Translations under genes and position numbers: made by a program
Assembly (NCBI GenBank): GCA_030248295.1
Contig: JASANH010001409.1
Coordinates: 431,883 to 495,882, forward strand
From: Mesodorylaimus sp. YZB2_4
Lineage: Eukaryota; Nematoda; Enoplea; Dorylaimida; Dorylaimidae
Direction of reading: 5' to 3'
Length of the DNA: 64,000 nt
Notes under the pieces: generated by a model
Seen by the model: only the letters and a program-made list of their open reading frames with translations
What the model was told of the DNA's origin: nothing
Databases searched by the model: none
In this document: positions 4,107 through 63,415 of the stretch, piece by piece
How the letters are laid out: every line of letters starts with the position of its first letter
Position numbering within the stretch: the first letter of the stretch is position 1

Positions 4107-5201
4107 CTACTCCGAGTTCCGACCTTTCACAGCCACATTGGCGATATAGGAGCTTTTGATGGCGTTGCTGGTCACGGGGGCCACTCTCGAACCGATAGCC
4201 GTCGTCCCGCCGATCGTAGGGCGCATCATGGTGATGGTTGCGGGCCCGTTCTTTTGCACGATTTGTGGTTTACGACATCGCAGAGCCAGGAACACTCTTC
4301 GCCGTAGGCTGTTGTTGAATTTGAGATAAATAGCGCAATTGTTGCCGCAGCAGGCCAGCCAGATCATAGTGGAGGCTGTGGTGGCCCAGGTGCCATTGTC
4401 GATTTCGGGAACGGCGAAGAATCCGATCAGGGTCAGACCGATCATGGCGCAGATTAGCATGGCTTGGATTAATAGCTTCCTTTCTTTACGATTTTCGTTG
4501 ATTTGAGCCGCGCTAATTTGACCAGCCGTTTTTCGAATCGCTGCGAAGGAAAATGCGTACCAAATGACGCTCATGAAAAAATGGAACGTGTCTTGTATGA
4601 GCTCGACCAGCCAACATATTCTGGATGGATGCACCTGGTCATAATCCCAATTTCGATAATAGACATTGAAAATAAGATTGACATCGGGACACATGTATGC
4701 GATCAACCAAGCGAATCCATAGATCCAACAAATGTACATCATCCATTTAGTTTTTTGAGATGAGAAAAAATAATTTTTGTATTGCGGTTTGCAGATGCAT
4801 ATATATCTGTTGAAGGCTAGCACGTGCGCCAGTGCCGTGTATACGACCCAGCCAATGTTCATAAAGCCTCCGATGACCTTGTTGACGGTGAAACCCCAGG
4901 TGGTACCGGCGAATGTGTACAGTCCGCCGCACATACCATTGAGGACCAGTTGGAGCACGTCGGCTATGCCCACGTGCAGCACAATTATGTAGGTGGGCTT
5001 GTTCCTCAAGTTCTTGTCGCGGAGGATGCACCAGAGACAAGTGATGTAGGGGGTTATGCAGAACATGGAGAATACGATGTATATTGTGCCCATGATTCGA
5101 TTTTCCAACGGTACGTGGTGGAGTGTCTCGTTGTTGGGGAATCGCTCCTCGCCCAACAACACCTTCTCCATGTCCACATCCGGGTTGATATCGTAGAGCA
5201 T
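4107..5201 (-). CDS. Srt-like nematode chemoreceptor-type 7TM GPCR, copy 1
   Basis: Single-exon gene of 364 aa. The first ATG in the frame is used (5201); the frame can be read 13 codons further up only from a TTG. Seven hydrophobic segments are visible at roughly residues 35-57, 70-92, 105-130, 146-167, 190-215, 245-268 and 278-300. AFNRYICI at the end of TM3 stands where the DRY motif normally sits. After TM7 come WLACCGNNCAIYLKFNN and an arginine run, which recalls the TM7-tail pattern of Srt receptors. Family knowledge: nematode Srt/Srx proteins are mostly chemosensory neuron receptors at the plasma membrane. Ligand and cell type cannot be read from sequence. The copy at 9604-10659 is a clear paralog on the same strand. 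The absence of introns is odd beside the intron-rich neighbours and could mean a retrocopy or intron loss. The exact serpentine subfamily is uncertain. Confidence 0.8.
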   Translation of the reverse strand: MLYDINPDVDMEKVLLGEERFPNNETLHHVPLENRIMGTIYIVFSMFCITPYITCLWCILRDKNLRNKPTYIIVLHVGIADVLQLVLNGMCGGLYTFAGTTWGFTVNKVIGGFMNIGWVVYTALAHVLAFNRYICICKPQYKNYFFSSQKTKWMMYICWIYGFAWLIAYMCPDVNLIFNVYYRNWDYDQVHPSRICWLVELIQDTFHFFMSVIWYAFSFAAIRKTAGQISAAQINENRKERKLLIQAMLICAMIGLTLIGFFAVPEIDNGTWATTASTMIWLACCGNNCAIYLKFNNSLRRRVFLALRCRKPQIVQKNGPATITMMRPTIGGTTAIGSRVAPVTSNAIKSSYIANVAVKGRNSE

Positions 5202-39325: not shown

Positions 39326-40409
39326 AGGTAACGTGTCAAAAGGTCGAGACATGTGTCAAAATGTATTGTGGTATGTAAGGAGAAAAGAGGACTTACTGTA
39401 GGAAGTGCCGTCCCAACGAAGTACGACTGATGAGTCCGTATCACTGGAAGGAGTGACCCGGGGGAGCTTTTGCACCACACCAAAACCCCAGGGCATCCAA
39501 TTAAGTCTTTCGACCTAGTCCATGACTGAAACATCACCCTGGCGAGTCACGGTCCCAGCTGCTGGGTCCGCAAGGTGTGCTAGCCGAGCCTCTAAAGATC
39601 AGAGCAACTGACGAATTTTAATTTCAGGGAGCAATCCAGCCCACCTGAGGATCGGCATGAAGCTTGCATATGTGATGCTGAATCATGCAGTCTGAAGTTC
39701 AAATTGGAGCCAACAGAGCAGGCTCACTCAAGTATGACGCCTTTGATTATTGGATATTAGACACCAGATGACTGCTATAGTTTTCTTGTTTTCTGGGATC
39801 CGTATTATTTACTAAGGATCCATCAAGGCCTGAGCCAAGAGGAAATTTCCTTGATCTATCTGGATTTATTGATACGACCTCTTTATTGTTTCTGGTTCTT
39901 GCTGGTCTAGTTTTTCGACTATACCCCCCCCCCCCCCGTGATTTAGAAAGAGTATCTTCTGATGTTTTGACAGTTGCCATTATCATTCACCGTGTTGCGT
40001 GCACGCTCATCGTCAGTACAGATTATTTGGCCCGTTTTCCTCGTCGAGCGATAGTCTTAATATTCTCCCTCGGTCGCTTGGTAAGCCGTTCTAAATGTGG
40101 TGTAGTTTGAGTCTCCGCATCAGACGTCATTTGGTTCGGTTGCTGCATCTCACATATACCGATATCCATGTAGTATGCGTACGTCATCATGTAATGCGAG
40201 AATAATTTTTTGCTTTGCAAGATTTGCTTTTGACAAGCAAATTACTGCGTTAATTTGTGCGCACCATATTGGCATAAAATTATGTGGTAAAGTAAACAAA
40301 AAATAAAAATGTGTTCTCATTGACAATAATTCTGTCAATTTCAGGCATTATTAAAGTCTGAATCCGCAGTTGTCTGAGTGATAGAATCGTCGACACGGTT
40401 GGGACATTA
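39326..40409. other. Intergenic region with repeat and poly-C tract
   Basis: Carries dispersed repeat family D copy 2 and a 14-base C run near 39925-39938. No other feature is supported. Confidence 0.5.
39425..39595 (-). repeat. Dispersed repeat family D, copy 2
   Basis: The reverse complement matches 6190-6345 across its length, including CAGCAGCTGGGA, CAGGGTGATG and CATGGACTAGGTCG. About three quarters of positions agree by eye. Confidence 0.55.
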
Positions 40410-40994
40410 ATGGAGCGAATCCGCGACGGGACTGCAATCAACCATCACCAACGGGTGATCGACGCCGATCATGAGAGTCAATTATCCGAAAATATCGAGG
40501 AAACGTCGATGGATGCTGGTTGGGAGAGTTCGGGTGATGACACAGAAACAGACCAGGATCAAGACGACCATGGCCGATGGACATTCGAGAAGAAGAAGGC
40601 CATGGTCGAGTATCACAAAGCGGGCCAAGGACGCGATGGAGTGACAGCGAAACTTGGACGACCACGAAAAGGCTGTCGTCGGAGGACGGTGGATGCGGTG
40701 GCCAGGCGTTATGGAGTATCGACGAGCCAATTCGTCCGATTCAAGAAACAAGTCGAGAATGGCGGGACAAAGCGCGATAAGTGGCGCCGAGTCGATGCAG
40801 CCGTCATGGAAAAATACGAAAAAGCCAAACGCGACATGCTCCCCGCCCACGACAGTGACATTCGTCGATGGGCATTGGACGCGGTGTCGACCATTGGCTT
40901 ATCGGGGCCGATCGTGATCAGCCAGAAATGGATCTTCCAGTGGCGAAAAAGGCATAACATCGCCTCGAAGATATCGTTATGCCGATTGGAATAA
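40410..40994 (+). CDS. CENP-B/Tc5-type HTH DNA-binding protein, transposase-derived
   Basis: A 194-aa frame from an ATG at 40410. Residues 1-50 are acidic. A first helix-turn-helix (psq-like) covers about 85-110 (TVDAVARRYGVSTSQFVRFKKQ). A second, CENP-B-type module covers about 135-188, with HDSDIRRWAL, IVISQKWIFQWRKRHNIAS. This pair normally forms the N-terminal DNA-binding half of pogo/Tc5-type transposases and CENP-B. The DDE nuclease half is absent: a stop follows at 40992 and no further frame is recognisable downstream. It is therefore either a truncated transposon remnant or a freestanding DNA-binding protein. The uninterrupted frame favours recent or selected sequence. A 13-base motif GAAGATATCGTTA occurs at about 40968 and again at about 41238. 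Confidence 0.65.
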   Translation: MERIRDGTAINHHQRVIDADHESQLSENIEETSMDAGWESSGDDTETDQDQDDHGRWTFEKKKAMVEYHKAGQGRDGVTAKLGRPRKGCRRRTVDAVARRYGVSTSQFVRFKKQVENGGTKRDKWRRVDAAVMEKYEKAKRDMLPAHDSDIRRWALDAVSTIGLSGPIVISQKWIFQWRKRHNIASKISLCRLE

Positions 40995-41588: not shown

Positions 41589-42440
41589 ATGATGTGGTCT
41601 GAATGCCATGCGAAATGTTTCGACTACTTTTTTGACCGAGCTAGGCATGCAAAGTTATGTCACGTAGGAGAAATTAAGACACCTCGTCTGTACCAGGATA
41701 TAAGAAGGGCAGAGCTTACAATGAATTTCAAGATGCTTGACCAGCGCAGCGTCGGACTGGACACGAAAAGATACCCGATGTCAAAACGAAAGTGCTCTGT
41801 AAACACCTGATGGAGAAGAAGACAGGGAGGGCCACAGCTGCCATGCAAAGTTACTGGTGTGAAAAGTTGACTACAGCTAATCTGGACTTCAGGGCCTACT
41901 GGAGACTAAACACGAGCAAACATGTGGACGGTCTGACCAGGTCAACACTAGTCTCCTGTACAAGGCACTGTACACTAGGAGTACGATCGCCATTGTCGCA
42001 GATGTAGATCGAGTCGTGCAAGTACTGTGGACAGTAGCGGGGTAGAGTATCCGGGAGGACGGATACCACGTTTTCAAGAGTGCCAAAGAGTGCTTGGGTT
42101 CTGGAAGAAAGTGGAAAGCCTTCTCCAAAGAATGCATCCTTCCGTCAAGATCGGTGATGAGAACAAGATCTTCGGTCTGGCTGGCATAAAAAGCAAAGCC
42201 ATGCTCGTGACTGCGAACGTAGTTTTGCAGTCAGCCCAGAGATGTGTTTGGTTCGCCAGAATGGATTTTGAGGAAAAAGGAGAACTGGTAGATTTATGGG
42301 AATCACGGAGGAGGAGACTCTGGGTCTCGACAAACAGGGCTCAATTCATTTTGGACAGGCATCGGTTTGAGGATACTTTCCTGAAGTCCATCTTCATGCA
42401 AGAATTGAAAAACATGAAACAAAAAACAGGAAAAAAATGA
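41589..42440 (+). mobile_element. Decayed L1/Tx1-like LINE 3' end, copy B
   Basis: The C-terminal part of a LINE ORF2. 41589-41800 encodes a fragment in one frame. A CKYCGQ zinc-knuckle-like piece lies near 42015-42035. 42027-42440 encodes FWKKVESLLQRMHPSVKIGDE followed by NVVLQSAQRCVWFARMDFEE and a lysine-rich end at 42440. It is collinear with 14540-14820 (copy A) and, reversed, with 63030-63415 (copy C). Stops and frameshifts separate the pieces. The RT core is absent. It lies directly upstream of the R1 unit, in the same orientation. Confidence 0.72.
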
Positions 42441-43149
42441 ATGTCATGTCAGGATGTCAGGATCTGGTGTATTGTGCTAGAGTGCAGTACTGGCTTTGTT
42501 AGGGCGGGATGACGCGACTGCCCGTGTTATTTGCCTGCTAAGACTTTTCTTTCTTGCATGGGTTGATGCACAGTACATGGCGAGAAAGATTTAGTGCATT
42601 CCATGTCAAAGAGTTTACATATTTACTTAGATGGTCGTAGGCGGATAATATTTCGCTATTAATTTCGGTATTCTAAAAAAAGGGGGTGAAAGGGGTAGGA
42701 TGAGTGAGGGATTAAAGTGATACATGGCAGGGCTTTCTCATCACAGCTTTTTAATCCCGGCCTTGTTATTTGTCAGTGTCAAAAGGTGGGTTGTGTGCTT
42801 GGTGGGACCATCGATTTTTAAATGCTGCTGCCACTTGTGATGCTCAGTTGGCCATTGGTTATTCGCGGTGGGACTAGTTGTTAGCTGCTTATACCAACCT
42901 GGGGACTTTACACTCGGCCTTTTCAGCTCCCTGATAGTGCGTTGTCATACTAAGGACTGACCGTGGCTACACGTGTGGCGTTTGGCTGCTTTGATTTTCG
43001 ATCAGGCGTCTGGCGTTTTTAATCGATTCACGCGCGTATGTTGGTTTTTCCACCTCTATCAATCGTTGGTGTGTGTTTGGTTTCGTATTTCTTTGTTGTT
43101 TTGCGATCCGTCTATTTAATTTCTCGCTTTTTAGATTTATCTTTCCGCA
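42441..43149 (+). repeat. R-family leader, R1 copy
   Basis: This stretch is repeated, reversed, at 62281-63030 (R4). Its right part is also at 59171-59445 (R3), and its last 200 bases at 58350-58560 (R2). Common blocks are GTCAAAAGGTGGGTTGTG, TAGCTGCTTATACCAACC, ACTTTACACTCGGCC, a TG/CA microsatellite and the acceptor CTCGCTTTTTAG. The conservation across copies suggests a shared promoter and 5' UTR. Confidence 0.7.
43123..43134 (+). promoter_or_regulatory. Conserved splice acceptor just upstream of the R1 ATG
   Basis: CTCGCTTTTTAG ends 15 bases before the ATG at 43150. Equivalent TCGCTTTTTAG sites precede the ATG in R2 (58365), R3 and R4. In nematodes such a site can accept a trans-spliced leader or end a 5' UTR intron. 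Which of these applies cannot be told here. Confidence 0.5.
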
Positions 43150-44129
43150 ATGAGTTCGACTGCTCCCGGCACGAATTCGAATGAAGTCCAAAAATTGGTA
43201 AGTATGCATACGCGCTCGAGATACGTTTAAATTTTGGATCTAGTATTAGTCTTCCGTTTTAGCCAACCGATACGGCGGGTTATAATTTTCTTGGAGGACG
43301 CAAGGTGTTACCGAGCGTTGGGGTAAAAGAATCGGACGCAGGTCAGACGGTTTTTTCGTTGCGTCTTTCGTGCCAAATAATTCAATGCGTCTTTATTGCA
43401 GAGTGGAATGGCTTCATACTCTTCGACGGAAGGCGAGAAGACGAGGAGGCGAGGAGAAGTTGTGGGATTTGGTATTCGAGCAGAAGGTAAGCAATGGTTT
43501 CTAAACTCTTCTAGCGCTCTGAAAGTCTTCTTTTAGGTCGACGCGATCGTGGGGTCGTCGATTGATGCACCATTCACGTCGAGCTTGACCTCTAAAATCG
43601 GCTGCGATCGTGAAGTTGGCAAATACAGCGTTAACGCCGCCGCGGAAAGTGAGAGTTTTACTGCGATGATTGCCGTTATTAAACTTGGCGACTCGCGTTC
43701 AGAGGTAATTGCGGTGTTTCCATAATTCCGAATTCACAATTTGCTCCTTTTTAGGTTCGGCTTTTGATTCCGAGGTCGCAGAAAGTCGAGGATCGTAAGA
43801 AACTGGGAATTCGAATAGTTGCCAGCGTGAGGAAGTTATGATCGAAGGACACAAAATTTACGGCGGAAGTATGGCGACCATGATTCGTGGATTTCAAGTA
43901 ATACACCAGGACGAGGTGGACCCGACGAAATTTCCCGGCATGTTCCGAAGTCAATCAATGGCTTCTAAAAAGCTATATTTCCGACGTTATGATCATCTTT
44001 GGCGACATGATCAAAGAAAACGATAGTGGGTTTGCAACCGTTTATTTCTGGCCGCTTCTGATGTCATGCGTACTCTTTTCAGAGACGATCATTGGAATTC
44101 AATACGACCATGTGCAAGTATCGGAGGTA
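43150..44129 (+). pseudogene. R1: frameshifted multi-exon member of the R gene family
   Basis: Exons follow the family pattern: 43150-43197 (MSSTAPGTNSN start), 43263-43341, 43402-43486, 43537-43704, 43755 onward, and 44085-44129. Exon 3, compared with R4, has an 8-base insertion that breaks phase. The frame after 43755 reaches a stop at 43838, after which coding sequence resumes one base out (MIEGHKIYGG, later DVMIIFGDMIKENDSG). The family has no domain I recognise. Acceptors and donors are otherwise intact, so the gene was functional until fairly recently. R4 is its closest relative. Confidence 0.65.
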
Positions 44130-44148
44130 AGCTCCGAGTCAGATAAAA

Positions 44149-44201
44149 GCCCCTTCGGTCTCGATACTGCCATGGCATGGCAGTATCGAGACCGAAGGGG
44201 C
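44149..44201. repeat. Perfect 53-bp palindrome (26-bp arms, 1-bp centre)
   Basis: The left arm 44149-44174 starts GCCCCTTCGGTCTCGATA and is the exact reverse complement of 44176-44201, with a single G at 44175. Preceding AAAA extends a motif AAAAGCCCCTTCGG that recurs in the palindrome inside R2 at 58124-58161. The sequence immediately before it is TCAGAT here and TCGGAT (read on the minus strand) in R2. Confidence 0.95.
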
Positions 44202-44239
44202 CACGTAGGCGACCGAACCACCACGTAGGCGGTGGTTCG
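44201..44239. repeat. Direct repeat plus second hairpin next to the R1 palindrome
   Basis: CCACGTAGGCG occurs at 44201-44211 and 44221-44231. CGAACCACC at 44214-44222 is complementary to GGTGGTTCG at 44231-44239, with an 8-base loop. It abuts the 53-bp palindrome and probably belongs to the same unusual insertion. Confidence 0.85.
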
Positions 44240-45933
44240 ATGGAGAGAAGATTAAAATGACAAGTGATTTATAGTGATATGATGAACCTGGTGGTTATTA
44301 TGTTGTGTTGATTGGCTCTTTTTCGTTCATTCTATAAAAATATACTGTATATTGTGAAAAAAAATAAATCTTATATTCGAAAAAAAGAATAGTCTGGCTG
44401 CTGATCGAGTGCACCTGGTCCTAGGATGTCCACGCTGGCGACCAGTTCCACTGCCGATTGATAGCCGACAGTACTGGATTTTGCCCATGGACAAATCGGC
44501 AGATAAACCAAGTCTCTGTCCCGGAGTCAACTCCTGGACTCCACCAGTATGAGCCAAAGGGAACAGCGACTGTGGAGGCCCCTTGAGGGTGCACTAACCC
44601 AAGTCCCTGGTTGGCGCTTGCACCACGCCACAGGTCTGCCAAACGGGCTGGACAGATACGAAGGGTGGCCCAACAACAACAGCGAGCTAGAGTGTAATCG
44701 AGCGAGGGAAAGCATAATATCACTCAGGGACCTGTTCTTATACCCCTGGCTCCTCCCAGTGAGCCCTGCCTTAGCCACACTTCCAGTACTTACAGACGTC
44801 TTCAAGAGGCAGAAGTCACAACATCGGAGAGGCCCTCCTAATCATCTGCCTCGTATTCGTCAGGATGTCGTTCTCCTTCATGTGCCCATGGCCTGATGAC
44901 ATGACGTGGACGTGGACTTGTGAGACCGCCTGCAGTTGCTGCGGCCTCTCTAGTGTGAGTGCGTGTGAGTGCACACTGCTCTCGGCTTCAAATAACCTTG
45001 GTCGTTCTTGACTTAATATGACCTCAACAAGGTCCATGTGCCGTCGCAAGCCAGGAATCACCATCAACGTAACATTTGTAGATCGAGCTAAGAACTAAAG
45101 TTTTGCTCCTCCTTAACTCAATCATAAAATATAGCATCCCTTTCATCTTGTTCAGGTGGGCGGTCAATAGCCGACATTCCTCGAGGCCTTCTCTCTCCTA
45201 CCCTCTTTTGGATACTCAATTGGACTAGCGCATCTTCCGGGATTTTTCATGGGGCCTTTAGACACTAGGACTAGAGTTTCTGAGGTGCCTTTTGATTGCT
45301 GATTCTGCTCTCTGTTAAATCTGCAACAAGTCCTGGGAGGGGCACGGGACACGGGATGGTTGTGATGTGCAGAGAAGGCTGCGCAATTCCAAGCGCGTAG
45401 GTTCGATCCCCAATCAAGTCGTGGATCATCCATTCGAAAAGAACCTCGCCGAAATAGGTATGGGCTCGAAATGGCTGGTTTGACACTTTGTGAAGGCAGT
45501 TCGAGCAGTCGGTGCACTGGCTGCGCCACCACAGACTAGTGGGTAACCCGTATCTTACATCCGTCCCCAGCCAGCTGGGGGAATTTCCTATCACATGCTT
45601 TTTGCACTCCATGCCTGCACCTTATTCAGCTTGCATGCGCATGCGCACGCCACCCTCGCCACGAGCCAAATATAGTACGTTTAGATGCGTCTTGCGAGCA
45701 AAAAATGGAATCTTGTTTGGCCGAGGCAAGTGAGCCGTCAACTTCTTTTCAAATGACAACAACAAACCGGGGGCGGGGGGAGAGAGGGGATCCTGGAGCG
45801 TATCTATCGTCATCAAAAGTGTGTGTACAGCGAATGAATCGAGTCTATTCCTGTTCATACTCCTATTCCAAGTTGAAGGTAGACGGGAGAAGGCTCCAAG
45901 AAGTGTGTCAAGTCTACGCCGTCTTCGAGAAAA
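44240..45933. other. Intergenic region upstream of the PAN genes
   Basis: No gene is supported. A tRNA-like box-B sequence lies near 45365-45425. The promoter of the PAN gene at 45934 should be at the right end, but no clear motif is visible. Confidence 0.45.
45365..45425 (+). repeat. tRNA-like SINE head
   Basis: A box-A-like segment near TGATGTGCAGAG is followed by TAGGTTCGATCCCC (box B). No closed acceptor stem is found, so a SINE-like origin is favoured. Confidence 0.4.
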
Positions 45934-48143
45934 ATGTTCAAGTAAGTGGCAGTTTCGGATAGAATCTTTAGGAGCCCATAATTTTTTGACTTTCACGCTT
46001 GAACTCGAGCTTTTTTGGGGAAGGTGACCGGATTTCGACTTTAGGCGAACTTTAAGCGGAGCAGCAGTTTTACTTACTGCGCTCATCGTACTCACTGTGG
46101 CTTATGAAGATAAGGACTTGGGCTGTCCTGGTTCGGAGCATATTACGAGTTTTATTCGGAAAGTTGAAGATGGAAAGAAAAGCATAAATGGAAAATGTTC
46201 TCCCTATTCGCCCGGGCTGACTGAGGTGAGAAGCGAGCACTGTACCAGTTTAGTTTGGTAGGCAGAGCAAAACTCGTGGGTCCTTGGCGTGAATGAGCTG
46301 TTGGGTCCCTGCTGACTCTTTCAACGAAGCAGCTACACTGCACTCGGACATTGAAAGACATGGAGGTTATGAGGATATGAGCTGGTCAGGAGATCCCCCC
46401 ACCCGCACTGTGCGGGAGTGCACGCGCAGGAGGTCTGACTACAGTGCAGTGTCTGAGGTGTCAAGCCACAGGGTTAGGCATCTGCCACACAGCAGGTGCG
46501 CAGCGAGTATTCGAGTCGTGGCTCAATAAATCTCGTCTTGTGTAATGGCCTTTCACCCTCGAGTGCGCATACCCGCGTTTGGTGATGTGATAGAACATGA
46601 ATATGAACCCTACTGACTCGGACCCACGCACTCAATAAGTAACACCATGATGTCCAAAGTCCTTCCCTTTCAGTTCCCCAGCACCTGATCTGTAAGTGTT
46701 TTCAACGAGGCCCTAGCGTATTGCATTTCAGGACGCGGCTTGCTTCCTTGGTATTGCATTCAGGTGCAGTGACGATTGGGAAGGTTGTGACGTTCCAGGC
46801 TCTTGGATTGGCGGGTTCCAAGTGTTTGACGTGGATCCAAACGCGGAAATGTAAGTGTTACGAGTTGTGCTGCTGCAGTGGTGACCAGGCGGCCCGTTTG
46901 CAATCTATCGCTAAGAACCGATGAACCCATTCCTTGGTCCTCTGCTAAGCATTAGAAATGCCCTGTTTTCGATGAAAGGTCAATGTCATGCTGAAGCCAT
47001 GCGAGGATTTGATTTCCCATGGGTTCCGTTTTTCCTAGTGCGCCCGTTGATCGCTAGAGTACTACTCTATGGCCATCACGTAAGCCACAGTTGCCTACTC
47101 GATTATCATACGCTTCTAATTTCAGCTACGTTCCTTATTGCTGCCTCTCGAAAGAGGTCAAAATCGATCAGTCCAAATGTCGTGAAGTAAAGTTGGTCGA
47201 TAAGGCCAAACAGAGCCTGGAATATGTGTCCTCCAATAACAGGATATTCTCCCATTTTCGATGCAAGTATTTCAAGAATGAAGACCAGAAGTAAGGTCTG
47301 ATATGTTCTGTATGCTCAGTCAGTGAACTGTGTTTTGGTGTAGGACGGTCAATTACATGACCCTGGCGCTGAAGGAATGCAATTATAATGTCACGTCGGC
47401 TCTGAATGAACCGCAGACAACGGACAAGACGACAACTACGACGACGACTGTCAGCACGACTACGAGGAAGGTTGATGCGAGTAAGTCGAGTTGTGGGGGC
47501 TAGGAACGAAGAGTCGGGAGAGACAGTTTGATTGAGTGCTGGCATGATCTTTGCACTGCGTGTATGTTTGAGGGTGTTTGATTCTTCTGGTCAGGTGGTG
47601 ACCATAATGGTGGTTCGGACTGTCTGGACAGGTGCTATAAGCAAGCATCACATCAGTCTTTGTTTCCAGCCATTCATTCGATCCGACCTCCACCTCGGCC
47701 TCATTATCCCTCAGGTTGTTCCTTCCCTCCTGGACCAGATTGCCCCAACATCACTCCCCTCCTCGGACCCAATCACACCTCAGTCTTGCTCATCATCTCT
47801 CCATCTCTCCCTCGTTCCAGGCATCTGCTTCGCCCGTCGTATAACCAAGAACCAACGATTAGACTTGTTGGAACAGAATGTGCGAGTGATCGATTCATCG
47901 CCCGTTTCGAGCTTGGAAGAATGCGCCAGTCGATGCCTTCACTCGGATACTCAATTCAGTACCAGATGCAACTCTTTCCGATACCAGGACAACAATAACG
48001 ACCCATCGCCATCGTGCACACTGAGAAGTAATTACTTGCCGTCCGAACCGCTCGATGTGAAATGGGTCGATAAGGCTCAAAATGTGACCTATGGCAACCG
48101 AACTGAGTCTTGCGAGGTGCTAAAACGGTCTCTGGCATTGTGA
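45934..48143 (+). CDS. Secreted cysteine-rich protein with C-terminal PAN/apple domain
   Basis: Six exons: 45934-45941, 46045-46225, 46732-46850, 47126-47290, 47344-47480, 47821-48143. Phases match and give 310 aa. The first exon holds only the first two codons and two bases of the third; exon 2 supplies a signal peptide (LSGAAVLLTALIVLTVA, then YEDKD). Residues about 25-165 are a cysteine-rich region with no family I recognise. A Thr-rich linker follows (TTTTTTTVSTTT). About residues 205-305 form a PAN/apple-like domain with six cysteines (ICFARR, EECASRC, TRCNSFRY, PSCTLR, ESC). PAN domains bind proteins or carbohydrates outside the cell, so a secreted or matrix role fits. The gene at 49466-50107 is a reduced paralog carrying signal plus PAN only. 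The acceptor of exon 6 (47820) is one of two candidates, chosen because it keeps the domain in frame. Confidence 0.75.
46470..46533 (+). repeat. tRNA-like sequence in intron 2 of the PAN gene
   Basis: AAGCCAC and GTGGCTC can pair as an acceptor stem, CTGC...GCAG can form an anticodon-like stem, and TTCGAGTC resembles a T-loop. The D-arm is poor, so it is probably a pseudo-tRNA or SINE piece. Confidence 0.4.
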
Positions 48144-50364: not shown

Positions 50365-53300
50365 TCACTTCCAAACCTTGACGACCCCATCTCGAGACGC
50401 CGTTGCCAAAAGCCAACTGGCGGACCCTGTTCTACATACGACCATATCGCTAACGATGTCGTGATGCGACGTAGTCACCTGAACATCGAGTGACGAGCTC
50501 TTCGATACCTCGCCTGAAGCACTGCTCAACCCCGTCGAGCTGCCCCCTCTGGCCATCGACGAATGCCTCGTCGACCAACTCCTCGGACTCGAAGTCACCA
50601 CACTTGCCATGTATTCCTCGAAATACACTTGAACACCGTCCACAACTTGACGCCTATACGGAAGCAGACTCAATTGAGAGGCCATCATAAGACATAAGAC
50701 AGCCTGCTCAGGACGTCTCTGGTCACTCAAATCATCCCCTCAATTGGAGTAAATACTAGCGCCAATTCCTGGTGGCTGCCCGCGGGGTTTTCCGACATGC
50801 GCCAGCTGGAGCATAGCATCGACCGATTCCCGATCGGGAGTATGATCCAGGCCTGAGATCGGCCTAGCTGATGCTGGGTCACTAGTGTCCCAGTGGTCCA
50901 ACATTACCTAGTATCGACACGACCGTTTTGCATCTTACGAATAATTTAACACAGCCTTTTGTATACAGCGACCCTAACATTGAGACCAGAATGGCAAACC
51001 CCAAGCACGCCTATATTAGCACACAAGTATGTGCAGTAGCTTACTTGTATGACAACGCTTTCATCTGTTGCGGACCAGCGAGATTCTTCGCCTGATTTTC
51101 CTCATCGACCGACGACAATACGCACGAATTCTTCACATCGTTCAGATCCCAATATCGAATTCCACCCTCGCTATCCCCAGTTATAACATTCGCAGCACGG
51201 CTCTCCGATCCAGGATACGCGAAGATACTCGTTGTGCAATAGTTCGGCACGACAGCTGTCTCTTCATCCGCCTACAAGAATCAAGATTTCAAAACCCGCT
51301 CCCCCAAACCAAACACAAGAGAGATGAACACTCACCGCAGGATACGACAGCAGCGGGGTGCCAACACACGGCCAAATGGTCGCTTGACGCGTGCCCGTTT
51401 CCAAATCCCACTCGCTCAACTCACCACGACCGCCACCCACCGACACCAGCACTCTGGAATGTTCCACCGGATGCGTCCATAATCGATTTATCGGCTTCTC
51501 TGAAATCGATTATTTAATCAGCATAGCACACCAATCTCATCCAAAGGACTCTTACCCGCCGGATGCTGGCAGACGTTGATGGACAACTGAAATCTCAAAT
51601 CCCACAACATCAACCGTCCAGCCGCCGTTCCCAGACAAGCCCATTGAAATTGATCAGCATCGACTGCCAACGAGGTCACCAAGCCGAGTCTACTCGGATT
51701 CCGAAACCGCCATACCGCATTCGGCTGTCGTTGATCCCAGCATATCACGTGGCCGTGATGACTAGCTCCCGCGATCACGTTCGTACTTCCTGCAGAAAAT
51801 CACGCCTTTGCCTTCCCCCTCCGTCGACACATGGCCAGACTTACCATCGAAATAGGCGACCATATCAACAAGCGGCCCTTCATTTTCCACCTCGGTCTGA
51901 TACTGACGAAGTACCGTGGGTTTCGACCAGCTCGAGTCGAATCTTAGGACTTGAACGAGCCCATTGTCGGACGCGCAGACAACTTGATCAGTCAGGCAGG
52001 TCACGCATTTCACCTTTCCTCCTAGAAAAGTGTCCTTTTTGTAAGCAGTAAAACAACAAAAAAACAGTTGTCTCACCCAGTTTGCTATAAGTGTATTTAC
52101 TCCGGTTGGCCATACTTTTCCCTTCCATCTTCTGGCAGTCCCACAACTTCAGCGTTCCATCGGAACTTGCACTAACCAAGAAGCGACCGTTTGGATGGCA
52201 CGAAAGTCTACAATCAAAAAACTAAGTTACCATTCGACCCTGCCCCAAAATTTCTGTGCTCTCACCTGTTTACGGCAGCCCGATGCTCATGCGCGTGCGC
52301 CAACATGACGCCACTGGGTTTCCAAGACGATGCGGGCCACGTGGGCGTTGCGGCAGTGCCGGCGACCCTCGCTGATGATGATCTCGCCGTACGACGCCAC
52401 TCTTCTCGCTTCAGTTCCACAAACTTAGTTAATGCCACTCGACAATCGGACATTCGAACATTGGTATCGGCCGCCGAGGACGTATCGACCAAAACGTCGT
52501 TGTTGCCATTCACACTCAGGTTACCACTGCTGTTCGCCCCGTTGGCGACCTCTGATCTAAAATACAATTTCTTTTAACACGATCCATCCAAAAGGAATCA
52601 GAGCACTCACGTTTTGCGCTTTCCCTCGGTCACCGTTTCCCCAGGACCAACGATATCCATTTCGGACGACATGGTCGACGATGTTGTCGTGGCCAGACTC
52701 AATCGATCCAAGGACATGGCTCCTGAAGGCGGATGCGTATCGCCGCCCGCCGCCATCTGAGTCGATTTCGTGTTCGCGCTCGGTTCGGCCGTGAACGCGG
52801 TTCCATGGCCGCCTTCGTGCGGTACGCCCAATTCGGCATGCGTCGCAGTCGTAACGATCAACGTTTGCTCACTGCTCACCGTCGAGACGGCGTCCGGTTC
52901 AGGCAGCGGATCGTCCAAACCCGCCGCGCCGCCGAACATGTGTTGCCACTCCTCGTTCTGAAACACAAGCACTAAAACACCCCAAAACCTGTTGTCTCCT
53001 CTTTCTTACCATCACAACATCGACCATATGACCTGCTCCGAATCTCCGATCGTGACTGTACATCCTCCGTCCCCTATCAACGGTCAAGTCGGCGTATTTG
53101 GTCACAATCGTCATCATCGTCAAATCTAACACGCCTGCTTTTCTGATGGCCGATGTCTCAGCCCCAGACGAGAATTGGTGTCCCGACGGCTGCTGATTGA
53201 ATCCGCTCTTCATCTTCCTCATTTTCGATAAGATATCGGAAAACGCGACCAGTCGATCCTCTTGTTCATCCGTTAACCCTTGAATCAGAAGCTTTTGATA

Positions 53301-56870: not shown

Positions 56871-58349
56871 TCAAAACTCGGCAGGAGCGCCCATCTTGTC
56901 GTCGATCGGAAACAATTCGCGCAGCTTCAGCTCCACCACTTTGACGCTGCCTTTAGTCGAACATACAATCACTCGCTTGACCTGGAACCGAAAAAAAGGT
57001 CACAAATCTGAGTCACAAGTGGAAGCGGAGCTTACTTTGCGAGCATTCGAACCCGTCACAAGCCATGTTCGCAGGGACTTCAGACACCTTTCAATCGACA
57101 CATGGTCACTCCATGGCACGCCACGAATCGGGAGTGCCAAGACCTGAAAAAGGAATGGAACAATTTTCTGGGCAGCGAAGAGGAAATCATGTAGCTTACC
57201 ACAGTTTTGGCGTCTTTTTCGGACATGCATTTCTCAAAAGCAACTCGCAATCGTTCTTCAGTGTCTATCGCCGTGGCCACCTTGATGCGTACATAGCCTA
57301 CAAAAGATGCTGCTAGCCATGGGAAGGGCCGGAAGGTCACGCCCAGACCAGCCTTACATTTAAACGGTTTACCACCTTCAGCCTTATCGACTCGAATTTT
57401 CGCCTCCGCCTCGGCACTTTCAGTTGTTGGTACTTGAAAAAGAAACATCTTGGAGTCGTTGAAGAATGATTTACGAAATCGCTTACCAAATTCGAACACC
57501 GCATCCGCGGAAATGCCGTCGTAATTGCCAGGAAAGAAGGTAATTTTTCCGACTAAACTTTGACCTTAAAACGTTCACGTTAATTTTTCTCAGCGCTTAA
57601 GAAAGCAACATGAAAGCTTACCATTCGTCGAGTCCTCTTTTAGCGGCCATATTGGCAGTTCGTCTAACGTCAAGTATTGGCTTTCCCTGCGAACGCTCTG
57701 GCACAAGGTCATATTTTTCTGACTCGTCCAATTAATCGAAAGCTAAACAAAATGTTATATTTTTGGTGCTTCATAGAAAACGCATGGCGCTTACCAAAGT
57801 ACCGTTTCCCGTATTATGTTTAAGCAGGCGATCGCCTTCACCCTTCGCAGCGTTGTTCCATTGCGCCATCTCGCGCATCTCCGCAAAAAAACCTTCGGCT
57901 CTGAAACACATGCGAATTAATTGGGAATGGGGGTGAAAAAAGAAGAAAAGAGACTCACATCGCCCGTTCCTTAATCATTTTTAAAGTACTAGGGGAGCCA
58001 ATCAGACGAAGCACGAGAACGATTTGATTGATGTAACGATCCCGATCCGTAGTGTTCGACATGTTGACCAGATCCTCCTTAAAAGCAGATAAGTTATTAT
58101 ATCGAGACCGAAGGGCTTTTAACGGCGTAAAAGCCCCTTCGCCCGAAGGGGCTTTTACGCCATCCGATTTTTTCTCGCCAACGCTCGGTAACACCTCGCG
58201 TTCTCCCAGAAAATTATAACCCGCCGTATCGGTTGGCTAAAACGAAGGACTAATACTAGATTCAAAATTTTAACGTATCTCGGACGCGTATGCACACTTA
58301 CCAAACCATCCATTCCATTCGAATTCGTGCCGGGTGCAGTCGAACTCAT
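56871..58349 (-). CDS. R2: intact chimeric member of the R family, function unknown
   Basis: Eight exons (minus): 58349-58302, 58236-57959, 57900-57795, 57742-57622, 57564-57487, 57432-57200, 57143-57036, 56981-56871. Phases agree; 360 aa. Exon 1 (MSSTAPGTNSNGMDGL) and the start of exon 2 (PTDTAGYNFLG...VLPSVGEKKSDG) are shared with R1 and R4. From about residue 42 the sequence departs: residues 42-62 are encoded by a palindrome, and the remainder has no counterpart in the other copies that I can align. I recognise no domain. There is no signal peptide or TM segment; it looks like a soluble alpha/beta protein. The C-terminal third (KTVVLALPIRG, later VKRVIVCSTKGSVKVVEL) has alternating strands and helices vaguely like a macro or Rossmann half-fold, too weak to call. 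Exon 5 may instead start 12 bases later (acceptor TTTAG); both keep frame. The 5' flank has the family acceptor at 58365. Confidence 0.75.
58124..58161. repeat. Perfect 38-bp palindrome inside R2 exon 2
   Basis: Arms 58124-58141 (GGCGTAAAAGCCCCTTCG) and 58144-58161 are exact reverse complements with a 2-base centre. The adjacent 58100-58122 carries a further half-copy (TATCGAGACCGAAGGG), which is also the right-arm motif of the palindrome at 44149-44201. All of it is translated in R2. Confidence 0.95.
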
Positions 58350-58702: not shown

Positions 58703-59170
58703 TCACCAACCGATTGTCTCCTTATCAGTTTGTGTACACGTTGTATACACTGCGTAAAGGGCGTAAACGAGAGCAAAGTAAACAGACGACCGCTCTGCGC
58801 GGCTGCTGAGCGCATCATCGAGTCCCCACGAGTCCCCACGTCCAATATCGGCCTTCATCGCAGTGAAACTCTCATTTTCAGCCGCGGCTTTTCGCAGTTT
58901 GACGATGTATTTTCCGACTTTACGATCGCTACCAATTTGCGAGACTAAGACGACGTACATGGTACATTCATCGGCGATCCCACGATCGCGTCGATCTAAA
59001 ACGAGACTCGCCAGAGTGCAAGAACAGCTTCAAAAAACACTGCTCTAAAACGAAACGGCTAGATGCCGAATCAACCGTTCTAAAATGCGCATGTGTATAC
59101 TTACAACTACTTTTTCTTCCACGCCGTCGCTCGGGGCAGTCGATTTTGCGCCAGTGCCAGCCAAGTCCAT
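58703..59170 (-). pseudogene. R3: truncated member of the R family
   Basis: Exon 1 (59170-59105) encodes MDLAGTGAKSTAPSDG and ends at a GTAAGT donor. The next recognisable block (58995 downward, after TTTTAG) matches exon 4 of R1: IDAIVGSP, then KVGKY and ENESFTAM. Exons 2 and 3 are missing. An in-frame TAG occurs 16 codons into exon 4, although the frame is otherwise open to 58703. The leader (59171-59445) is well preserved. Confidence 0.65.
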
Positions 59171-59445
59171 TGCGAAAAAATGAATCTAAAAAGCGAGCTA
59201 CGAAATTTTACAACCGAAATCTCAGCAGCCAAACGCAACACGTGTAACCAGATACGGTTCCGTCCTTGGTATGACAGCGCGTTGTCAGGGAGCTAAGAAG
59301 GCCGAGTGTAAAGTCACCCGGTTGGTATAAGCAGCTAACAACTAGTCCCACCGCGAATAACCACTGGACACCTGAGCATCACGAGTGGCACGAAAATTTA
59401 AAAATTGACGGCCCCACCAATCACACAATCCGCCTTTTGACGTCG
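59171..59445 (-). repeat. R-family leader, R3 copy, with sharp outer end
   Basis: Matches the R1 leader from GTCAAAAGGCGGATTGTG to the pre-ATG acceptor. Homology with R1 and R4 stops abruptly at about 59445, while R1 and R4 continue into the LINE tail, so this may be the true outer end of the unit. Confidence 0.65.
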
Positions 59446-61722: not shown

Positions 61723-62280
61723 CAGAGGAGCACGAGATCACGGCGTCATCACATTGCGATCACTCTTTATACTTGAGGGCCATGTTCTTGCGGCGGGCGA
61801 TGGAATGTACTTCTTGGGAGCATCGCCCGAGAAATCGGTCCATTCGATGGTCGATTCCGACACCGATGGTGCATTCATCGGGATCCAATGATCGCGTCGA
61901 TCTACATAGAAGAAGACTAGATCAGTGCGCTGGAAGAGCTTCAGAAAAGATTTTTCACCTTCTGTTCAAATACCGCACCCCATAACTTCTCATCGCCCTC
62001 TCGCATTTCATCGAAGAGTATAAACTCATTCCACTCTCCTGCAATAAAGACACATTGAATTATTTGGCACGATGGTCGCAATGAAAAAACATCTGACCTG
62101 AGCGGGATTCTTTGTCGCCAATGCTCGGTAACACCTCCCGTCCTCCCATCATATAACCCACCGTATCGGTTGGCTGAAACGGAAGACTAGATCCAAAATT
62201 AAAACCTTTCACGAATGCATATGCATACTCACCAATTCATCAATTCCATTAAAATTCGCGCTGGAAGCAGTCGGATCCAT
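61723..62280 (-). pseudogene. R4: frameshifted member of the R family
   Basis: Exons (minus): 62280-62233 (MDPTASSANFNGIDEL), 62173-62098 (PTDTVGYMMGGREVLPSIGD), 62038-61959 (EWNEFILFDEMREGDEKLW), 61901 onward (IDAIIGS, then a one-base loss). Exons 1-3 join in phase and give the cleanest view of ancestral exon 3. A frameshift near 61870 ends the original frame, and readable protein continues to a stop near 61723. The leader upstream is nearly complete. Confidence 0.65.
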
Positions 62281-63029
62281 CGGGAAAAGATCTAAAAAGC
62301 GAGCGACGAAATTGAACAGACAGATCTCGATGGCAAAACAACAAAGAAATACGAAACCAAACACACACACACACACACCAAGGATTGCCAGAAGCGTAAC
62401 AAACGAATATACGCGTTGGACTCGATGGAAAACTGAGAAACAATGTCTGATCAAAAATCACAGCAGCAAACCGCCACACGTCGAGCCAGCCACGGTTCCG
62501 TCCTTGGTGTGAGAATGACCACGCACTATCATAGAGCTAAGAAGGCCGAGTGTAAAGTCACCCGGCTGGTATAAGCAGCTCACCACTAGTTCAACCACGA
62601 ATAACCAATGGCCACCTGAGCATCACAAGCGGCAGCAGACTTTGAAAATCGATGGTCCCACCAAGCACACAACCCACCTTTTGACACTGACAAATAACGA
62701 GGCTGGGATTGAATGAGCTGTGATGTGAAAGCCCTGCCATGTATCACTTTAATCCCTCACTCATCCTACCCCGCTCACCCCTTTTTTTACAATACCGAGT
62801 TGAATAGCGAAATATCATCCGCCTACGACCATCTAAGGATATATGTAAACTCTATGAGTGCACTACACTAACTAGTGTAACTCTCCCTCGCCAGTACTGT
62901 GTATCAACCCATGCAAGAAAGAAGTCTTAGCAGGCAAATAACACGGGTAGTCGCGTCATCCCGCCCTAACAAAGCCAGTACTGCACTCTAGCACAATACA
63001 CCAGATCCTGACATCCTAACATGACATTC
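62281..63029 (-). repeat. R-family leader, R4 copy
   Basis: Near-complete reverse-complement match to 42441-43149, including the extended TG/CA microsatellite (62358-62378), the TAAAGTCACCCGGCTGGTATA region and the CCCGTGTTATTTGCCTGC block. Confidence 0.75.
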
Positions 63030-63415
63030 ATTTTTTCCTGTTTTTTGTTTCATGTTTTTCAATTCTTGCATGAATATGGACTTCAGGAAAGTATCCTCAA
63101 ACCGATGCCTGTCCAAAATGAATTGAACAGACCGATGCCCTGTTTGTCGAGACCCAGAGTCTCCTCAGTGATTCCAATAAATCTACCATTTTTCCTTTTT
63201 CCTCAAAATCCATTCTGGCGGACCAAACACATCGCTGGGCTGACTGCAAAACTATGTTCCCTGCCACGAAAGTAGATTTGCTTTTTATGCCAGCCACACC
63301 GGAGATCTTGGTGAATCCGGTTCTCATCTCTGATCTTGATGAAAGGGTCCATTCTTTGGAGAAGGCCTTCCACTTTCTTCCAGAACTCTTTGGAACTCTA
63401 CGAAAACATGTCTAC
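63030..63415 (-). mobile_element. L1/Tx1-like LINE 3' end, copy C
   Basis: The reverse complement encodes FTKISGVAGIKSKSTFVAGN, IVLQSAQRCVWSARMDFEEK and LRRLWVSTNRA, matching 42055-42440. It continues without a break into the R4 leader just as copy B continues into R1. Short indels break the frame. Confidence 0.75.

Follow-up and report, generated by a model that had tools for sequence, protein, structure and literature searches.

The question raised by this locus is how one gene copy, R2, came to carry a palindrome within an open coding exon, between a leader found in its neighbors and a body not found in them. The initial annotation of the window (the whole stretch of 64,000 nucleotides analyzed here) had read R2 as a chimera in which a palindromic element captured or fused coding sequence. 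The locus is instead a real and informative rearrangement scar and not a gene-capturing palindromic element. The features on which this conclusion rests are collected in Table 1.

Table 1. Positions of the R copies, the R2 exon parts, and the two rearrangement ends in the window (exon/intron boundaries are marked by a slash).
Feature	Position	Strand	Content	Basis
R1	43150..44126	+	leader and middle exons, frame broken in places, without body	sequence comparison
R1 intron remnant	44127..44166	+	5'-most 40 nt of the ancestral intron, with the 22-mer AAAAGCCCCTTCGGTCTCGATA at the end	C58 intron alignment
R1 palindrome	44149..44201	+	26-bp arms, 1-nt center, where R1 homology stops	inverted-repeat scan, folding
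Nested repeats at R1 break	44202..44239	+	CACGTAGGCG twice and a 9-bp inverted repeat	sequence inspection
R2 exon 7	56871..56981	-	includes stop codon	gene model
R2 exon 6	57036..57143	-		gene model, C58 comparison
R2 exon 5	57200..57564	-	longest; acceptor choice uncertain	gene model, C58 comparison
R2 exon 4	57622..57742	-		gene model, C58 comparison
R2 exon 3	57795..57900	-		gene model, C58 comparison
R2 exon 2, read-through	57959..58236	-	old exon 2, palindrome, intron tail, and first body exon	open frame
First body exon	57959..58077	-	EDLVNMSNTTD...KERA	65% identity with C58 over 37 positions, tblastx
R2 intron tail	58078..58122	-	remnant of ancestral intron 3' end ("half-copy" plus end CTGCTTTTAAG), in open frame	C58 intron alignment
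R2 palindrome	58124..58161	-	18-bp arms, 2-nt center; start of intron segment in both orientations	inverted-repeat scan, folding
Old R exon 2 part	58162..58236	-	PTDTAGYNFLG...KSD	resembles exon 2 of R1, R4, and C58
R2 exon 1	58302..58349	-	start codon to donor TTG/GTAAGT	start codon to donor TTG/GTAAGT
R3	58829..59272	-	leader-like part, then R1-type middle exon, broken	sequence comparison
R4	61866..62508	-	leader, exons 1 to 3, start of exon 4, then broken	sequence comparison

As first described, R1, R2, and R4 have a 5' region in common that extends from the leader through exon 1 and intron 1 into the first part of exon 2, with matches in this region of 82% over 403 bp between R1 and R2 and of 75% over 416 bp between R2 and R4. 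A GTCAG donor closes exon 2 in R1 and R4 (CAG/GTCAGACG and CAG/GTCAGATG, respectively) and is indeed missing from R2. A genome search with the R leader (E up to 0.001) found none beyond these three copies. R1 and R2 are convergent, R1 facing right and R2 facing left. R3 apparently lacks exons 2 and 3, its intron 1 acceptor closely preceding an R1-type exon 4. R1 and R4 lie within an inverted duplication (42067-43573 and 61866-63410; 81% over 1585 bp) that includes their upstream flank, and an open reading frame at 40362-40994 gave a weak match to a Tc5 transposase DNA-binding domain, at 20.9 bits versus a Pfam cut-off of 22.2. Matches to Srt chemoreceptors make it likely that the DNA comes from a nematode.

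The interval singled out initially proved to be exactly R2 exon 2, 278 nt long and free of stop codons throughout. Five further body exons (exons 3 to 7) were modeled in place of the six that had been counted, and the sequence between the old exon 2 part and the body, palindrome included, comes to 84 nt, or 28 codons, instead of about 21 residues. Intron 4 of R2 (57565-57621) has an apparent end of TTTTAAG, or of TTTAG 12 nt further on, and AAG acceptors may thus serve this gene family. A search for SL1 gave no match, and 14 controls were equally silent.

The palindrome had been called perfect over 38 bp; its 18-bp arms are perfect, and with the 2-nt center 36 of the 38 positions fit that description. 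In 20 Markov-1 sequences of 64 kb each, the longest perfect arm reached 9 to 12 bp (loop up to 20), so the R2 palindrome is not due to chance. With the same loop limit and arms of at least 10 bp, the window holds three perfect inverted repeats, namely, that of R2, an 11-bp one at 51479, and the one with 26-bp arms at the end of R1; with arms of at least 12 bp and a loop of up to 10, the R1 and R2 palindromes stand alone. Across 12 other genome loci (67,926 bases, including the C58 and C15 loci described below), arms reached at most 13 bp (loop up to 20). As RNA, a 71-nt stretch covering the R2 palindrome has a folding energy of -39.5 kcal/mol (z = -5.5). Past the R1 break, the segment at 44390-44680 is a dispersed repeat, present in at least 39 other places (40 of 354 candidates scored).

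The origin of the R2 body was addressed by a genome search with 128 residues beginning at R2 exon 2, which returned R2, exon 2 of R1, and two weaker body relatives, one on contig C58 and one on C15. C58 carries, on one strand, an exon resembling R exon 2, followed by counterparts of the R1 middle exons and then of the R2 body exons. The body had been described as not alignable to the other copies, and this held for the R1 middle (z = -1.2); it did not hold for C58, with which the body aligned at z = 68.7 (0 of 300 shuffles; Smith-Waterman). Moreover, an R1-type gene elsewhere with the exons of the R2 body had been named as the observation that would speak against capture, and C58 is such a gene, at the distance of an old paralogue. 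Since this colinear gene has all three parts, the body is native to the family and it is R2 that is without the middle exons; capture of a foreign body was thereby ruled out. By these alignments, the R2 body is the normal 3' half of the family, and R2 seems to have lost its middle exons through a DNA rearrangement.

The link between the middle exons and C58 is old and was seen in Smith-Waterman shuffle tests. Exons 2 to 5 taken together scored z = 23.6 (0 of 300 shuffles), exon 4 scored z = 11.0, and exon 5b scored z = 6.9 (0 of 1,000 shuffles each); the pieces came from R1 and R4, in different frames, and were picked with C58 in view and then combined. For exon 2 against C58 exon 2, the score was reached by 0, 16, and 143 of 1,000 shuffles for R1, R2, and R4, respectively, and besides this R4 exon, exon 3 (79 of 1,000) and exon 5a (33 of 1,000) were weak singly. 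Where no match was expected, none was seen, either between the R1 middle and the R2 body (the z value given above) or between the R2 body and the C58 middle (z = -0.6). C58 was not among the matches of a genome search with the R1 protein, a search with the C58 middle matched C58 alone and not R1, and tblastx of R1 against C58 gave only E = 0.64. The R1-C58 middle link thus appears to be old and to have been missed by simpler searches; it rests on the combined shuffle test. The C58 model was made by hand and contains one apparent frame change in exon 5.

Over four gap-free body exons (137 codons), R2 and C58 differ at 56, 49, and 84 sites by codon position, with a dN of 0.53 and a dS of 3.15, the latter saturated. 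These four exons thus show purifying selection over a long history, which says little about the time after the event. Because Pfam searches with R2, the C58 middle, and the C58 body gave no match above any family cut-off and a PDB search by sequence (E up to 1) gave 0 matches for the R2 body and the C58 middle, the function of the R2 protein is left unnamed. C15 is a damaged fragment of a C58-type gene; its copy (locus L013, about 4770-4930) is interrupted by a G/T-rich low-complexity run, perhaps an assembly fault. Two further relatives, C62 (three places) and C699, have only the last exons in common with C58 (E up to 0.01), and since this sharing lies inside longer repeats they are uninformative on R exon order. 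Of the four long repeats carrying the last exons of the C58 gene (loci L036, L037, L038, and L039), three match one another at about 97% over 3.7 kb; the set was read as a gene tail spread with a larger repeat.

The intron preceding the body in C58 is 62 nt long, and its two ends were recovered at separate sites in the window. The R1 copy stops within this intron, where it has a 53-bp palindrome. The intron remnant of R1 aligns with the C58 intron at a score that 0 of 2,000 shuffles reached, and the donor of the pre-body intron, GTAAGCTC, is identical in R1 and C58. The R2 intron tail starts at the 22-mer AAAAGCCCCTTCGGTCTCGATA, here lacking one C, and continues through the old acceptor into the body; its score against the C58 intron was reached by 7 of 2,000 shuffles alone and by 0 of 1,000 with the following exon. 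The half-copy noted beside the palindrome is therefore present, but by its alignment with C58 it is the end of the intron that precedes the body. The two intron pieces overlap by 22 nt, and R2 contributes 22 nt outside the overlap, so that 40 + 22 = 62 nt, the C58 length, or 61 nt if the extra A of R2 (TTTTAAG) was a later gain. Neither sum calls for a palindrome in the ancestral intron. The two copies of the 22-mer, at 44145 (plus strand) and 58100 (minus strand, one C shorter), are inverted relative to each other, and the palindrome arms are perfect reverse-complement copies of the intron segment retained alongside. To judge from C58 alone, the older acceptor was TTTTAG.

We regard as the best explanation, and as a fairly probable one, that the middle exons of R2 were lost when an inversion of about 14 kb broke the intron ahead of the body and the ends were repaired by fold-back synthesis. 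In this reading, the intron was cut just ahead of the body, and exon 2 of an R copy became connected to the 3' end of that intron. As a single event, an inversion from 44.15 to 58.1 kb would account for this most economically: the present R1 gene would have been cut in its intron, with ends staggered by 22 nt, and the R2 copy, which faces the other way, would have been cut within exon 2. The 5' half would then have stayed at R1, the 3' half would have come to lie behind the R2 leader, and the 22 nt would be found at both ends. Fold-back (template-switch) synthesis may have copied the intron end of about 20 nt back and forth, giving the palindromes at R1 and R2. Later, one base would have been lost and one gained in the intron tail; three in-frame stops would thereby have disappeared, the former splice acceptor would probably have become weaker (TAG to AAG), and the scar now reads as 28 exon codons.

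Two features expected of a staggered-break inversion are present. A single-copy 22-mer is inverted at both ends of the segment and occurs nowhere else with up to 3 mismatches, and the halves of one 62-nt intron lie apart in opposite orientation, in the convergent R1 and R2. A further feature of an inversion, R-like sequence right after 44201, was not found when 42001-46000 was compared with the window by blastn; because nothing R-like in the window matches the sequence that starts at 44202, the inversion requires an extra loss or filler. We infer an inversion, rather than a deletion, from the rearranged order itself and not from gene order in an unrearranged relative. The nested direct and inverted repeats at 44202-44239, as well as the palindromes, look like template switching at the ends. 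All 44 paired positions in the palindrome arms (26 in R1 and 18 in R2) are identical, and intron 1 of R1 and R2 is identical at 58 of 65 positions (7 differences). If the arms were as old as the R1/R2 split, zero mismatches in 44 positions would have a P value of about 0.007. Because such identity is improbable at the divergence of intron 1, the event probably postdates the R1/R2 duplication, provided that the arms have not been kept identical by later template switching. If the inversion is correct, the name of gene chimera may stand, for a chimera of two R copies and with no capture by a palindromic element.

Compared with R1 and C58, the intron tail of R2 is missing one base and carries one extra. 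Restoring both original lengths puts three stops into the R2 frame, and either of the changes by itself leaves the body out of frame; only the two compensating indels (-1/+1) together keep the frame open through the scar. Such indels fit exonization under selection, although they could be due to chance or be part of the same repair. Translation of the palindrome and the intron tail is plausible from the frame. It is possible, if somewhat short of probable, that a repair-made palindrome and a stranded intron are now translated in a working gene that at first could be read only by splicing, the indels having removed three stops, weakened the acceptor, and added 28 residues between the protein parts.

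We considered, as a weaker but still substantial possibility, that the palindrome is untranslated and removed as an in-frame intron. Such an intron would end at TTTTAAG/GAG and begin either at GGC/GTAAAAG by the palindrome (length 81 nt) or, 36 nt farther upstream, at GAG/GTGTTACC (length 117 nt); this possibility concerns expression and is compatible with either origin of the scar. Splice sites were scored against a small set of 26 hand-modeled family introns, from which R2 intron 4, with its ambiguous acceptor, was left out. All three candidate sites are in phase 0, the acceptor region is that of the old acceptor, a GTAAAA donor was modeled once in C58, and R2 intron 4 may likewise end in TTTTAAG. 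Moreover, before the indels the three stops in the unspliced frame would have made splicing necessary. The acceptor score of 3.7 is low yet inside the modeled range of 0.7 to 13.8, and 47 of 396 arbitrary AG sites scored at least as well. The donors, however, scored -1.0 (nearer) and 2.0 (farther), below all 26 modeled donors (2.3 to 11.0, leave-one-out), and 221 of 483 arbitrary GT sites scored at least -1.0. Both introns would also exceed the 50 to 73 nt of the modeled set, the nearer donor sits in the base of a very stable hairpin, and it was the compensating indels that opened the frame.

As to the origin of the scar, two separate events are a less probable but appreciable alternative. R2 would have lost the stretch from exon 2 to the pre-body intron in place, with a fold-back insert, and R1 would have been truncated independently in that same intron. 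No large inversion would be required, R3 and R4 have breaks of their own elsewhere in the gene, which indicates that the array loses parts often, and template switching is known to make reverse-complement copies of nearby sequence (PMC8794818). Against this, both breaks would have had to fall within 22 nt in the about 2,100 nt that lie downstream of exon 2 in C58, and both would need palindromes. The intron pieces overlap instead of leaving a gap, and both breaks carry copies of the same segment. The retained segment, moreover, has 0 substitutions in 21 aligned bases, compared with 7 in 65 for intron 1 (P value of about 0.09).

The preferred reading, a single inversion with fold-back repair, also has to be set against an assembly or library artefact, such as a fold-back chimera. 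Small palindromes can arise in amplified libraries. Such an origin is nevertheless very improbable here, since both palindromes lie at real homology breaks within one ancestral intron and the R1 palindrome continues into 44202-44389, a stretch for which no other match was listed. Weakest of all is the in-frame insertion of a mobile element, resembling a MITE or a Rickettsia palindromic element, that fused foreign coding sequence to the R leader: a perfect inverted repeat within a coding frame and a related palindrome 14 kb away would suit it, but many dispersed copies would be expected, the 22-mer that builds the palindrome has just two occurrences in 145 Mb when up to 3 mismatches are allowed, so that the palindrome is not a mobile family, the flanking half-copy is old intron, and the body is native, and we regard the reading as already refuted in this genome unless many diverged copies evaded the 3-mismatch search. 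An exact 14-mer was found at four genome places, with about one match expected by chance in 145 Mb by simple arithmetic, and the two places outside the locus had no inverted repeat (arms of at least 10) within the surrounding 3 kb. Accordingly, the proposal that a palindromic element captured coding sequence was abandoned, the body being native to the family and the palindrome not being repeated across the genome.

Because the two halves of the broken intron, now 14 kb apart, can both be recognized, this compact and recent case allows breakage, repair synthesis, and reading-frame rescue to be traced at the sequence level. Should the palindrome be present in the transcript, the locus would give a stepwise view of how a repair scar and an intron end become coding. 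Rickettsia palindromic elements are palindromes inserted in genes and read in frame. The R2 palindrome is like them in lying in frame inside a protein gene and differs in being unrepeated in its genome and derived from the gene's own intron. In the limited collection of papers searched, none was found that combined an inversion breakpoint, a chimeric gene, a palindrome, and template switching. In Drosophila mojavensis, staggered-break inversions were recognized by inverted duplications at both ends (PMC3355041). As in the inversions described there, a sequence that was originally single-copy is found at either end of the segment, one copy inverted relative to the other, and genes at the breakpoints are altered; the duplicated piece is 22 nt here and about 1 to 7 kb there. 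Unlike those inversions, the present case has palindromes at both ends as well, and the proposed inversion is read from the rearranged order itself. Template switching creates perfect hairpins in one step and has also been reported to alter coding DNA in yeast (PMC8794818, PMC8604942). The R1 and R2 palindromes resemble such mutations in being reverse-complement copies of neighboring sequence with a perfect stem. Those mutations are local substitution clusters, whereas the R1 and R2 copies mark the ends of a gene-splitting rearrangement.
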